Of a DNA stretch of 64,000 nucleotides, positions 2,380 through 14,930 are shown piece by piece; position 1 is the first letter of the stretch, and every line of letters begins with the position of its first letter. The position numbers and the translations under genes were made by a program. The stretch spans positions 1,488,001 to 1,552,000 of the forward strand of contig NC_022521.1 of NCBI RefSeq assembly GCF_000591035.1. Direction: 5' to 3'. The stretch comes from Aeropyrum camini SY1 = JCM 12091. Its GTDB lineage: Archaea > Thermoproteota > Thermoprotei_A > Sulfolobales > Acidilobaceae. Under the pieces are notes generated by a model. It ran no database searches. It worked only from the letters and a program-made list of their open reading frames with translations, and was not told the DNA's origin.

Positions 2380-3477
2380 TTGGCAGACCCTGGGTTCAAG
2401 TTAAGGGCTATTACGATCCATTTTGAGGCCAACGCTGATGTAGGCATTATCGAGGATTCAGTCTTTAAGGCTAAGGAGGTTATTGATCGTGTAACCGCTG
2501 AGAGGGGTGTTGAGGTTTGGAGCCTCAGGGCGGTGCTAGCGTCAGGGGGTAATATTGCGGAGTCTGTGAGGAGGGCGGCCGAGCTGGAGCATCTAGTCGA
2601 AGGCGAGGGAGTATTTATAAATCTCGGCCTACATAGAGCTTCGCCCAGCGATTTTGATGCTGTAAATGACATCCTCGAGAGAGGGTTCTTCCTAAGCTTG
2701 GCACTCGTCGAGGGCTCCTGGGAAGAGGCTAGAGGCTACTCCCGCCTTATACACAGCCTGAGCGATAAGAGCCCTGATCTTGCAGTGCACATAGGTTTAA
2801 ACCCGCTGGGAACAGGCCTTCTAACCCCTTACTTCCCGCTCGCAACCAGCCCGGGCAGGGCCAGGAGTGTGACTGCGGCTCTCCTATACCCGAGGTTCCT
2901 GTTGGAGAGCTTTAGAACAGGCGGGCTCTCGGCTGTAGGCGATTCCATCGTTTATGCGGCACGCGTCTCGAAAGAGTATACCGAGGCTGTGGCGAAGGCT
3001 GTAGGCGGGTCGTTCGCCGGTGTAGATTTAAGCGTCTCGCCCTGGATGGAGGAGTCTAGCCTTGCACTCGTAGAGGAAGTTGCTGGCGTTAGGCTTCCGG
3101 AGCCGGGATTCGCCCACGGTCTAAGGCTTGTTAACGAGACGATAGCCGATGCAGCTTCCAGGCTGGGGAAAACCGTTGGTTTCAACGAGGTTCAACTCCC
3201 TGTTGCGGAGGATTCTAAGCTGAAAGTCAGGGTTGCTGAGCTTGAGACCTCGGCTAGGGATCTCCTTAGGCTTTCAGGAGTGTGTCTAGCTGGCCTCGAT
3301 ATGGCAGTGACCCCGGCTTCTATAGACAGTGTTGCCGGGCTCTTTCTAGATGCAAGGGCTTACTCTAGGACGAAGGGCGGCGTAGTAGGTGTTAGAATAA
3401 TCCCTATAGACGGGGTGGAGCCTGGCGACGAGGTTTTCCTGAAGAGGTTTGGGGAGGTCCCTGTTATCCCGCTCTGA
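2380..3477 (+). CDS. DUF711 (UPF0210 / PFL-like) family protein
   Basis: From TTG at 2380 the protein has 365 residues, beginning MADPGFKLRAITIHFE. The sequence matches the DUF711 family as I know it, including the N-terminal LRAITIHFEA and the central GINPLGTGLLTPYFP-like stretch (here GLNPLGTGLLTPYFPLA). The family is related to anaerobic ribonucleotide reductase and pyruvate formate-lyase folds, and its function is unknown. TTG 2380 is preferred over an in-frame start at 2305 because GGAGGGG (2367-2373) sits just upstream and family homology begins here. The TATA box at about 2201-2211 would give a leader of roughly 150 nt, unless a closer promoter exists. Confidence 0.85.
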   Translation: MADPGFKLRAITIHFEANADVGIIEDSVFKAKEVIDRVTAERGVEVWSLRAVLASGGNIAESVRRAAELEHLVEGEGVFINLGLHRASPSDFDAVNDILERGFFLSLALVEGSWEEARGYSRLIHSLSDKSPDLAVHIGLNPLGTGLLTPYFPLATSPGRARSVTAALLYPRFLLESFRTGGLSAVGDSIVYAARVSKEYTEAVAKAVGGSFAGVDLSVSPWMEESSLALVEEVAGVRLPEPGFAHGLRLVNETIADAASRLGKTVGFNEVQLPVAEDSKLKVRVAELETSARDLLRLSGVCLAGLDMAVTPASIDSVAGLFLDARAYSRTKGGVVGVRIIPIDGVEPGDEVFLKRFGEVPVIPL

Positions 3478-3491
3478 AGGGGAACCCCCTT

Positions 3492-3923
3492 CTAATATCT
3501 TATCTCCCACCCTACTACGGCTAGGATAATGGATATTAAGGTGACAGCTATAATATGGGCAGCCATGTCGACTCTACTTATACTATACCCTCGTCTATGC
3601 CTCCTTATTATCCTGAACCGGGCGTCAACAGCCAACAACACTATGGCGGCCAAGAGCAGTATCTTAAGGTTGACTAGGCTGCTGACGGCTCCGCGGGGCC
3701 AGCCAAGCTGGGTTGCCATGTACATCCCAGTGATAGCCGCTACCGCCAGACTCGGCAACCCTATTTTCTCGTAGACGCTTTCAAATTCCTGGAGAGGTCT
3801 GAAATCACCCGTGGTTATGAACCTGGGTAGGTATCCTAAGGCAATTATGATATGACCGCCTATCCAAATAGAAGCCGCAAGCACATGAAGCAGCTGGGCG
3901 ATCTGGTAAGCTGTAGCCAACAC
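3492..3923 (-). CDS. CopD-like four-helix membrane protein
   Basis: A 143-residue membrane protein with about four transmembrane helices, starting around residues 5-25 (AYQIAQLLHVLAASIWIGGHIIIALGYLP). The His in LLHVLAASIWIGGH and the final His in DMAAHIIAVTLI are typical of CopD / DUF2269-like proteins, where such histidines may bind haem or copper. The substrate is not known. It is convergent with the DUF711 gene, with 14 nt between stops. A TATA-like TTTAGCTTAAT on the reverse strand just upstream (about 3960-3970) may be its promoter. Confidence 0.75.
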   Translation of the reverse strand: MLATAYQIAQLLHVLAASIWIGGHIIIALGYLPRFITTGDFRPLQEFESVYEKIGLPSLAVAAITGMYMATQLGWPRGAVSSLVNLKILLLAAIVLLAVDARFRIIRRHRRGYSISRVDMAAHIIAVTLISIILAVVGWEIRY

Positions 3924-12639: not shown

Positions 12640-13776
12640 ATGAGGTGGTCAGCGTTTGTGGCGGCTGACAGGCTCGATCCATGGGGGGCAGTCGAGATAA
12701 AGGATTATGATAGGCTTTTGCACACGTTTGGTATTAGACCTTTCAGCGATATTCTGCCTCTACTGCGCAGGGTTGGTATGGAGCCTAGCATCCTAATGAG
12801 GAGAGGCATAATCTTTGGTCATAGGGACTTCGACAAGATCTTAGAGGCGAAGGCTAGGGGCGAGCCTGTTGCAGTGCTGACGGGATTCATGCCTAGCGGG
12901 AAGTTCCACTTCGGCCACAAACTCACAGTAGACCAGCTCATATACCTCCAGAGGAATGGTTTCAAGGTTTTTATAGCCATAGCCGATGCAGAGGCTTTCG
13001 CAGTTAGAAGGATAGGTAGAGATGAGGCTGTGAAGATAGCTGTTGAGGAGTATATAGCTAACATGATAGCCCTGGGCCTCGACCCTAAGGATACGGAATT
13101 CTACTTCCAGACTAACAGGGGAACACCGTACTACAGGCTAATCCAGCTATTCTCAGGGAAAGTTACAGCTGCAGAGATGGAGGCTATCTACGGCGGGCTT
13201 ACACCCGCAAAGATAATGGCCTCGCTAACCCAGGCGGCCGACATACTCCACGTACAGCTTGAGGAGTACGGCGGCTACCGATACGTAGTAGTTCCTGTAG
13301 GCGCAGACCAAGATCCCCACCTAAGGCTCACAAGAGACCTGGCCGATCGTATGACGGGCGTGGTAGAGCTTGAAAGGCCCGCCAGCACGTACCACAAGCT
13401 CCAGCCAGGTCTTGACGGGAAGAAGATGAGCAGTAGCAGGCCAGACTCCACTATATTCCTCACAGACCCTCCAGAGACTGCTAGGAGGAAACTCTTCAGA
13501 GCTCTGACAGGAGGCAGGGCAACGGCTGAAGAGCAGAGGAGACTGGGCGGCATACCCGAGATATGTAGCGTGTATCACATGGACCTATACCACCTGATGC
13601 CTGATGACGATGAAGTGAAGCACATATACACTAGCTGCAGACTCGGGAAAATACTATGTGGAGAATGCAAGCAGATAGCTTGGGAAAAGCTGGAGAGATT
13701 CCTAGCGGATCACCAGAGAAAGCTTGAGAAGGCTAAAGACATAGCTTGGAAACTAGTGGATCCCCCAAAATTCTAA
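12640..13776 (+). CDS. trpS: Tryptophanyl-tRNA synthetase
   Basis: A 378-residue class I aminoacyl-tRNA synthetase that charges tRNA-Trp. The HIGH signature appears as PSGKFHFGH (around residue 87) and the KMSKS loop as KKMSSS, both in forms normal for archaeal and eukaryotic TrpRS. GGYRYVVVPVGADQDPHLRLTRDL is the expected nucleotide-binding segment, split here by my reading into GGYRYVVVPVG and ADQDPHLRLTRDL. A C-terminal helical anticodon-binding part follows. The archaeal-type N-terminal extension (WGAVEIKDYDRLLHTFGI) is present. It is followed by about 680 nt without protein genes. Confidence 0.96.
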   Translation: MRWSAFVAADRLDPWGAVEIKDYDRLLHTFGIRPFSDILPLLRRVGMEPSILMRRGIIFGHRDFDKILEAKARGEPVAVLTGFMPSGKFHFGHKLTVDQLIYLQRNGFKVFIAIADAEAFAVRRIGRDEAVKIAVEEYIANMIALGLDPKDTEFYFQTNRGTPYYRLIQLFSGKVTAAEMEAIYGGLTPAKIMASLTQAADILHVQLEEYGGYRYVVVPVGADQDPHLRLTRDLADRMTGVVELERPASTYHKLQPGLDGKKMSSSRPDSTIFLTDPPETARRKLFRALTGGRATAEEQRRLGGIPEICSVYHMDLYHLMPDDDEVKHIYTSCRLGKILCGECKQIAWEKLERFLADHQRKLEKAKDIAWKLVDPPKF

Positions 13777-13825: not shown

Positions 13826-13893
13826 GGGAATGGGGATGAAGAGACGCTTTAGGGCCGAAGCCAGGATGGGGAGAGTACCCTCGCCTGACCCCC
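13826..13893 (+). ncRNA. Candidate C/D-box sRNA
   Basis: The layout is that of an archaeal 2'-O-methylation guide: C box GGATGA (13834-13839), D' box CCGA (13855-13858), a 4-nt spacer, C' box AGGATGG (13863-13869) and D box CTGA (13885-13888). The two guides between boxes are about 15 nt each. TGGG before C and CCCA after D can form the short terminal stem. CTAATAAAC (13797-13805) is a TATA-like box about 25 nt upstream of the predicted 5' end. The D' and C' boxes are degenerate, and no target was checked. Confidence 0.42.
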
Positions 13894-14007: not shown

Positions 14008-14017
14008 TTTCTAAAAG
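14008..14017 (+). promoter_or_regulatory. TATA-like box upstream of the long stem-loop
   Basis: TTTCTAAAAG is centred about 28 nt before the first base of the 321-nt stem-loop. This is the right distance for the stem-loop to be the 5' end of a transcript. Confidence 0.45.
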
Positions 14018-14040: not shown

Positions 14041-14361
14041 GGAGTCCAGGGTTCCTGAGGGCCCTAGGCCCGAAACCGGAGTTAGGAGCAGGGAGCCGAG
14101 CTCATGTAGGCCCGAGAAGCGTGGGCGGAGGAGCCCGAGCGTGAGCAGCCCGAGAGACTAGGCCGGCCGGCTCTCCGCCCCCAGGGTCTCTCCAAGGCGG
14201 TGGGGGGCCGCCTTGGAGGCCCTTTCGGAGCCCCCCGAGGGCTAGTCTCTCGGGCTGCCTAATGCTCGGGTCTCCCCGCCATAGGCCTCTCGGGCCCTGT
14301 TGGGCTCGGCCCCTGGCATCCGGTTTCGGGTGGTCCAGGGCCCTCAGGAACCCTGGACTCC
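14041..14361 (+). ncRNA. 321-nt long imperfect stem-loop, putative RNA gene
   Basis: The ends form a perfect 25-bp inverted repeat (14041-14065 with 14337-14361). After a few unpaired bases, GCCCGAAACCGG (14068-14079) pairs with 14320-14331. Further in, GGCCCGAGA and the 17-nt CAGCCCGAGAGACTAG-type arm (around 14147-14161) meet partners at about 14240-14257. The apex is an 11-bp perfect hairpin (14190-14200 with 14208-14218) capped by TGGGGGG. Internal loops separate the helices, so it is one long, almost unbranched rod. CCCGAG recurs several times along both arms. It is extremely GC-rich and has a TATA-like box at 14008-14017. Its length resembles archaeal 7S RNA, but the conserved SRP helix-8 motif is absent, so the class is unknown. 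Strand is set by the promoter only. Confidence 0.55.
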
Positions 14362-14364
14362 TGT

Positions 14365-14417
14365 GTGCTTATTGTGGGCCTTTGCTTATAATGTGTTAAG
14401 GTGCTTATTGTGGGCCT
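14365..14417 (+). repeat. Pair of 17-bp direct repeats
   Basis: GTGCTTATTGTGGGCCT occurs at 14365-14381 and again at 14401-14417, 36 nt apart. A partial third copy (GCTTATAATGTG) lies between them. The pair sits between the stem-loop and the VKOR TATA box, so it could be a repeated regulator site. Confidence 0.7.
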
Positions 14418-14420
14418 ACA

Positions 14421-14430
14421 GGTTTATAAG
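14421..14430 (+). promoter_or_regulatory. TATA box of the VKOR gene
   Basis: GGTTTATAAG directly follows the second direct repeat and lies about 34 nt before the TTG at 14460, predicting a start site near 14451. Confidence 0.5.
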
Positions 14431-14459: not shown

Positions 14460-14930
14460 TTGTGTAATAGTAAGTTGTGTGTTGTGGGTGTGGTCTGCTT
14501 GTCGAGGATTTCAGCGGTTCTTCTCGCCGCTGCCCTACTTGGCTACGCCGCCAGTATTGCTGGCTATTTCGAGTACTCTACTGGCTCTGGTGTTTGCGAG
14601 ATTGGTGACGTCGGTTTAGCTGTTGTCGATTGCTCCAGTGTTTATAGTATTCCCCAGGCTGTGTTGTTTGGCGTTGTTCATTTGAGCGTGATTGCTCCAG
14701 TGTATTTTACTTTTTTGTCTCTAGCGGCGTTGGCCTACTGGGTTAAGGGCTCTAGGATTTTCCTTTACTCCACGACAATTCTCTCCCTCGTAGGTGCAGT
14801 CATGGTTCCCTACCTAGTTTATCTGGAGGTTTTTGTGGCCGGTGCTTTCTGTCTCTGGTGCACGGTGATGCATTTATCCATATTGTCGGCGCTGGCCCTT
14901 TCTCTCCTATGTTTGAGGGCTTGCGGCTAG
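14460..14930 (+). CDS. VKOR family disulfide-forming membrane protein
   Basis: A 156-residue vitamin K epoxide reductase homologue with about four transmembrane helices. It has the periplasm-facing Cys pair of the family (SGVCEIGD and VVDCSSVYSIPQAVLFG) and the quinone-side CXXC motif as FCLWCTVMHLS near the C-terminus. In archaea and bacteria such proteins reoxidise a thioredoxin-like partner with quinone, replacing DsbB. The Ser in DCSSVYS is typical. No thioredoxin domain is fused; a thioredoxin-like protein is encoded at 35.1 kb but is not a neighbour. TTG 14460 fits the promoter, while TTG 14499 would remove a Cys-rich N-terminus and start just before helix 1. Confidence 0.88.
   Translation: MCNSKLCVVGVVCLSRISAVLLAAALLGYAASIAGYFEYSTGSGVCEIGDVGLAVVDCSSVYSIPQAVLFGVVHLSVIAPVYFTFLSLAALAYWVKGSRIFLYSTTILSLVGAVMVPYLVYLEVFVAGAFCLWCTVMHLSILSALALSLLCLRACG

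Follow-up and report, generated by a model that had tools for sequence, protein, structure and literature searches.

The 64,000-nucleotide stretch of the Aeropyrum camini chromosome analysed here (the window) contains a 321-nt imperfect palindrome, the rod, which is a real, hitherto unclassified element conserved inside one genus. We think that it is probably a lineage-restricted, independently transcribed gene for a structured non-coding RNA of Aeropyrum, and treat it as putative; this reading is preferred because the rod fold, the kept position, the covarying head, the turnover of the arms with pairing retained and a TATA box at the canonical distance all point to it. That transcription starts from the side of this TATA box, and that an RNA is the functional product, we infer from these features.

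Fold and anatomy of the rod

The rod folds on itself from end to end, with 129 pairs and −258.9 kcal/mol on the plus strand compared to a shuffle mean of −167.1 ± 5.7 kcal/mol (z = −16.1), and none of 100 dinucleotide shuffles reaches its energy. The minus strand folds at −251.8 kcal/mol (z = −15.5). When the 64-kb window was scanned as 1592 pieces of 320 nt, the rod was an outlier (−255.6 kcal/mol, GC-corrected z = −9.1); the seven lowest z values all belong to pieces that overlap it, and the best non-overlapping piece has z = −2.0. Inward from the outer arms lie a second near-perfect block and then a long, interrupted central helix, capped by an apical hairpin of 11 bp (CTCCAAGGCGG/CCGCCTTGGAG) with the loop TGGGGGG. 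An earlier note on this DNA had described a 25-bp base, a further block, a central helix and the 11-bp TGGGGGG hairpin, and refolding returned the same anatomy at exactly its coordinates; the direct repeats and the VKOR gene that it placed after the rod are both real. The G+C content of the rods (70–75%, versus 36–45% in the flanks) comes near the 78% of this genome's SRP RNA, in keeping with a structural RNA in a hyperthermophile.

Table 1. Features of the rod and its surroundings (positions in the window; a dot marks features given without a strand).
Feature	Position	Strand	Basis or remark
Class I aminoacyl-tRNA synthetase (W/Y), read as TrpRS	12640..13776	+	PF00579, E = 2.3e-43; upstream neighbour
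T-run (CTTTTAG) after pyrimidine-rich tail, candidate 3′ end	14013..14016	-	the plus-strand "TATA" of the earlier note
Rod, imperfect palindrome, predicted RNA gene body	14041..14361	- (favoured by conserved promoter)	fold, single copy, locus kept
Outer arm, 25 perfect bp	14041..14065 with 14337..14361	.	fold; on the minus strand the predicted rod begins at 14361
Apical head, 86–88 model positions (covariance models R1/R2)	14158..14245	.	model matches and covariation
Internal loop, CCCCCA side (UGGGGG on minus), opposite 3 nt	14178..14183	+	four species; complementary to apical loop
Apical loop TGGGGGG (CCCCCCA on minus)	14201..14207	+	invariant in four species
Internal loop, 3-nt side, TTT (relatives ATA or TGC)	14223..14225	+	
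17-nt direct repeat, copy 1 (CCCACAATAA box on minus)	14365..14381	.	between TATA box and rod
TATA box ATTATAAG	14385..14392	-	about 27 nt between its centre and the first rod base; transcript predicted to start near 14362-14366
BRE-like CTTAACAC, upstream of TATA box	14393..14400	-	alignments of flanks
17-nt direct repeat, copy 2	14401..14417	.	before VKOR TATA box 14423-14428
VKOR-family membrane protein ORF	14460..14930	+	Pfam PF07884, E = 5.7e-17; likely start TTG 14499

Rods at the same locus in other Aeropyrum

Rods adjoin VKOR, and usually TrpRS too, in five of six Aeropyrum genomes: A. camini itself (G000), G004, which we take to be A. pernix K1, G005, G001 and, by position, G003. The rod of G004 has the same length (321 nt) and the same place, following TrpRS and preceding VKOR, and folds at −273.4 kcal/mol (z = −14.8). 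That of G005 (WANT01000052) is shorter (z = −11.9) and also lies before VKOR, with TrpRS inverted, while in G001 a rod of about 365 nt follows TrpRS and both an SNase gene and VKOR are inverted on its far side. The G003 rod, found after SNase and next to VKOR, is GC-rich and branched and is without the C/G head described below. In the sixth genome, G002, TrpRS is not followed by a rod, and the contig with VKOR starts a short way ahead of that gene.

Searching 229 genomes of the class with the covariance model of the head gave matches in four Aeropyrum and in none of the 223 non-Aeropyrum genomes. The head of G001 was first found by model R1, which was built without it (22.7 bits, E = 0.029 in 55 kb); the scores that the later model R2 gives to this head are circular. 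A match in G167 (E = 0.04) was rejected, as the sequence around it does not fold as a rod, and we claim no further homologues from the stand-alone pattern CCCCC-N16-18-TGGGGGGC, which outside the genus occurs at about the rate of its reversed control.

Several other features were seen at or near the locus. In two Aeropyrum MAGs (L034 908-1573, minus strand; L033 615-1217, plus strand) the SNase gene, of the staphylococcal nuclease family (PF00565), separates VKOR from the rod; it was not found at the rod locus of G000, G004 or G005. Just downstream of TrpRS is a probable box C/D sRNA (13832-13890, plus strand), which resembles sR39 at a score far below gathering (17.6 bits, E = 0.06) and is kept in four Aeropyrum (in the relatives at L021 about 2056-2115, L103 about 3793-3848 and, inverted, L022 1378-1449). 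Farther away in the window, at 2840-3209, ARAGORN predicts a tRNA-His whose intron, at 250 nt, would be exceptionally long among archaeal tRNAs; the call may be spurious.

Comparison with known RNA families and mobile elements

The earlier note had proposed a scan against all Rfam families. Run with 4227 families, it gave no strong match to a known family: nothing reached the gathering score in the window, or at the rod in the loci of the relatives, and the matches to the rod up to E = 10 are weak and at chance level. Archaeal SRP RNA (RF01857) has no window match at the gathering score, nor has any SRP family a match to the rod up to E = 10; the SRP RNA of A. camini was found at C1:200456-200638 (E = 8.6e-22). 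Archaeal RNase P RNA (RF00373) likewise has no match within the window and scores above its cut-off at C1:455818-456146. The earlier opinion that the rod is neither of these RNAs thus agrees with the covariance-model scan, which places both elsewhere in the genome. Among the papers listed by searches for Aeropyrum non-coding RNAs or inverted repeats, none describes the rod in its title or the opening of its abstract.

By sequence search, as distinct from a genome-wide palindrome scan, there is one rod in the closed A. camini genome (1,595,994 bp) and one in G004 (1,669,696 bp), and a search of phage and plasmid sequences gave no match to it. We therefore rejected a MITE or other mobile palindrome, and a phage or plasmid origin, given the single copy per genome, the constant locus and the missing phage and plasmid matches; the mobile element that the earlier note had named as its alternative would have been present in multiple copies.

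A conserved, covarying head

The apical part of the rod has the same layout in all four species that possess it: a lower helix, an internal loop of CCCCC(A/C) opposite 3 nt, a further helix and the apical loop TGGGGGG. In the upper helix the arm 3′ of the apical loop (core strand) measures 15 nt in all four, despite differing helix sequence. Across the four sequences, a small sample with two members (G000 and G004) from close relatives, 18 of the 32 head pairs are changed on both sides, with 22 cells so changed and 94.4% of cells paired, a pattern that template switching alone can also produce. The covariation score is 0.604 compared to 0.233 for shuffled alignments; on each measure none of 500 shuffles equals the observed value, and the pairing signal collapses when partners are slid by one column. 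The search for paired substitutions in other Aeropyrum genomes suggested by the earlier note has thus found rods at the same locus, with over half of the head pairs changed on both sides, and its description of the element as a structured RNA, not a random palindrome, is supported by the lack of an Rfam match, the single copy, and the pairing and compensatory changes kept in the relatives.

The apical and internal loops are complementary to each other over 6 bp (−12 kcal/mol per kissing helix) in the four species and not in G003, only G001 being diverged enough to count as a separate case. In composition-matched shuffles, chance alone places the G001 loop motif near the apex with a probability of about 0.002. 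Relative to the conserved promoter, the G001 head is inverted compared with those of the other three species. A pseudoknot in cis between the apical and the internal loop was judged sterically implausible across 15 bp.

Turnover of the arms

When the rods of G000 and G004 are compared, the alignment is confined to the central 132 bp (87% identity). Alignment of the outer arms gives z = 3.0 and 2.3 over shuffles, compared to 19.4 for the centre, and the arms are thus nearly unrelated while genes near the rod share about 80% DNA identity. Both nevertheless pair almost without fault, with 37 of the first 40 nt in Watson-Crick pairs in G000 and 40 of 40 in G004, and the arms of the A. pernix rod contain internal repeats. 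Turnover with pairing retained is most simply explained by template-switch repair. Replication template switching has been documented to generate perfect stems, to repair them block-wise and to invert loops (PMC8794818), and would therefore account for both the replacement of the arms and the flipped head of G001.

Promoter and strand

A TATA box lies outside the rod on the VKOR side (the SNase side in G001 and G003) in all five species, its centre 24.5–29.5 nt from the rod, and shuffles give P values of 0.006–0.034 for it in each, the orthologous flanks not being independent samples. A BRE-like core of TTAACA type is common to G000, G004 and G001 and weaker in G005. No TATA box is shared between species on the other flank, which aligns poorly except for a brief stretch of GAGAGGCGGAG type at the edge of the rod. 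The plus-strand TATA-like box that the earlier note reported some 28 nt before the rod corresponds to a CTAAAAG at about 26 nt, which is present at chance level (P = 0.07) and is not conserved, so the direction of transcription given there is probably wrong. On the minus strand the same letters form the T-run of Table 1. A pyrimidine-rich tail follows the rod on this strand in all five species, and a run of four to five T occurs 20–29 nt past the rod in three of the five, with none in G005 and a distant one in G001.

The box conserved on the VKOR/SNase side places the RNA on the minus strand, which, if there is an RNA at all, we consider quite likely from the flanking sequences. The predicted transcript would most likely extend from about 14366 to about 14013, with its start as in Table 1 and its end close to 14041 or further on, perhaps at the T-run. 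Beyond the conserved promoter, G001 and G003 have no gene that it could drive, just the SNase 3′ end, and the promoter there most simply serves the rod. In G000, G004 and G005 the box may drive VKOR as well, since it lies within a tandem repeat; box pairs similar to the 17-nt repeats of A. camini are also present in A. pernix and G005. Viewed as a whole, the interval 14365-14430 consists, in three species, of tandem TTATTGTGGG...TTTATA units that resemble a pair of promoters sharing an operator box, placed between rod and VKOR.

Composition does not settle the strand. The asymmetry of G-U versus A-C in the rod shows no strand preference, a test that is uninformative because the SRP RNA of the same genome, used as a control, also shows none. 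Unpaired bases on the promoter strand give a mixed picture, with more A than T (51:32, P = 0.048) and more C than G (69:34, P = 0.0007), the latter opposite to the SRP RNA.

Discussion

The structure of the rod is conserved with compensatory changes, as in non-coding RNA genes, though template switching can mimic these, and the TATA box keeps the canonical distance in five species. Not everything fits an RNA gene. The inversion of the G001 head would not be tolerable for a sequence-specific RNA unless loop complementarity is what counts, and the rod and promoter without a C/G head in G003, and the lack of a rod after TrpRS in G002, also count against it.

The palindrome might instead act as DNA, as a hairpin or cruciform bound or processed by a protein in replication, chromosome structure or recombination, without any RNA product. 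We consider this unlikely, though it has several observations on its side: both strands fold equally well, there is no G-U bias, the G001 head is inverted relative to its flank, and in G005 and G001 flanking genes are inverted on one side or the other, as if the rod were a point of rearrangement. The TATA box at start distance in five species and the asymmetry of the conserved internal loop speak against it, and the location of the GC-richest part at the apex, together with the internal loops, should disfavour cruciform extrusion. A replication origin was rejected, both Orc1/Cdc6 genes lying more than 200 kb away and no GC-skew turn occurring at the rod.

A role in cis, as a very strong bidirectional terminator or insulator between TrpRS and VKOR or as the leader of the VKOR transcript, seems improbable to us. 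VKOR has its own TATA box after the rod, the rods of G001 and G003 lie past the 3′ end of SNase and not before VKOR, and archaeal termination requires U-runs and not 300-nt rods; the conserved loops of the head would also be left unexplained, even if the constant neighbourhood of VKOR and usually TrpRS, the extreme hairpin and the T-rich sequence near one rod end speak for it. We give very little credence to a quasi-palindrome, neutral or selfish, that template-switch mutation keeps perfect, or to the relic of a mobile element, as long palindromes are normally lost from genomes and this one occurs once per genome, at the same locus in diverged species, with no phage or plasmid match and with its head and promoter conserved. 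Arms that have almost wholly turned over with pairing still perfect, and the internal repeats in A. pernix, do fit such an origin, as does the known capacity of template switching to make and mend stems and to flip loops (PMC8794818).

Returning to the RNA gene, one can imagine how such a molecule would work. Its arms could form an extended A-form spacer, stable to heat, in which any sequence will do provided that pairing holds, new arms arising via replication template switching. The head would carry two complementary loops (C5-6 and UG6) about 15 bp apart, for which pairing in cis is not easy, and two antiparallel heads could instead form two 6-bp kissing helices and so a dimer, which may present a site for a protein or RNA partner. 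Inversion of the head would be survivable, as the complementarity of apical and internal loop is preserved by a flip. Self-assembly through kissing loops has precedents in the natural RNAs ROOL, GOLLD and OLE (PMC12286853). Given an RNA, dimerisation by loop-loop contacts is the mechanism that we favour for the head, but it is speculative and rather doubtful, and G003 does not support it. That the rods represent a new class of archaeal RNA, with arms left free through template switching and a head that dimerises in antiparallel by two kissing helices, and tolerates inversion because only loop-loop complementarity matters, is a proposal that we consider a long shot.

If transcribed, the rod would be an undescribed structured RNA, roughly the size of SRP RNA, in a genus with few known non-coding RNAs, and would provide a natural experiment in the renewal of long helices with pairing maintained. 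The template-switch account of stem evolution is directly testable in this one small place, as the arms have diverged almost beyond recognition, both are perfect duplexes and the nearby genes are about 80% identical.

Among known systems, archaeal SRP (7S) RNA (RF01857) is similar in its length of about 320 nt, its high GC content, its long rod-like helix and its single copy, but the rod gives no match to the family and the SRP RNA sits elsewhere in the genome. MITEs and REP-type elements are also intergenic imperfect palindromes, though the rod is single-copy and at the same locus in diverged species. Hairpins made or maintained by replication template switching, such as MIR633, share the long perfect stems, block-wise compensatory change and loop inversion between lineages (PMC8794818), but they are defined by a mechanism of origin and are not a functional family, and at the rod the mechanism would have acted repeatedly at one locus throughout the genus. 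The large bacterial homo-oligomers OLE, ROOL and GOLLD are, like the rod, covarying RNAs of unclear role with complementary loops that allow intermolecular kissing (PMC12286853); the rod has no sequence or Rfam relation to them and is much smaller, unbranched and archaeal, and its dimerisation is hypothetical.
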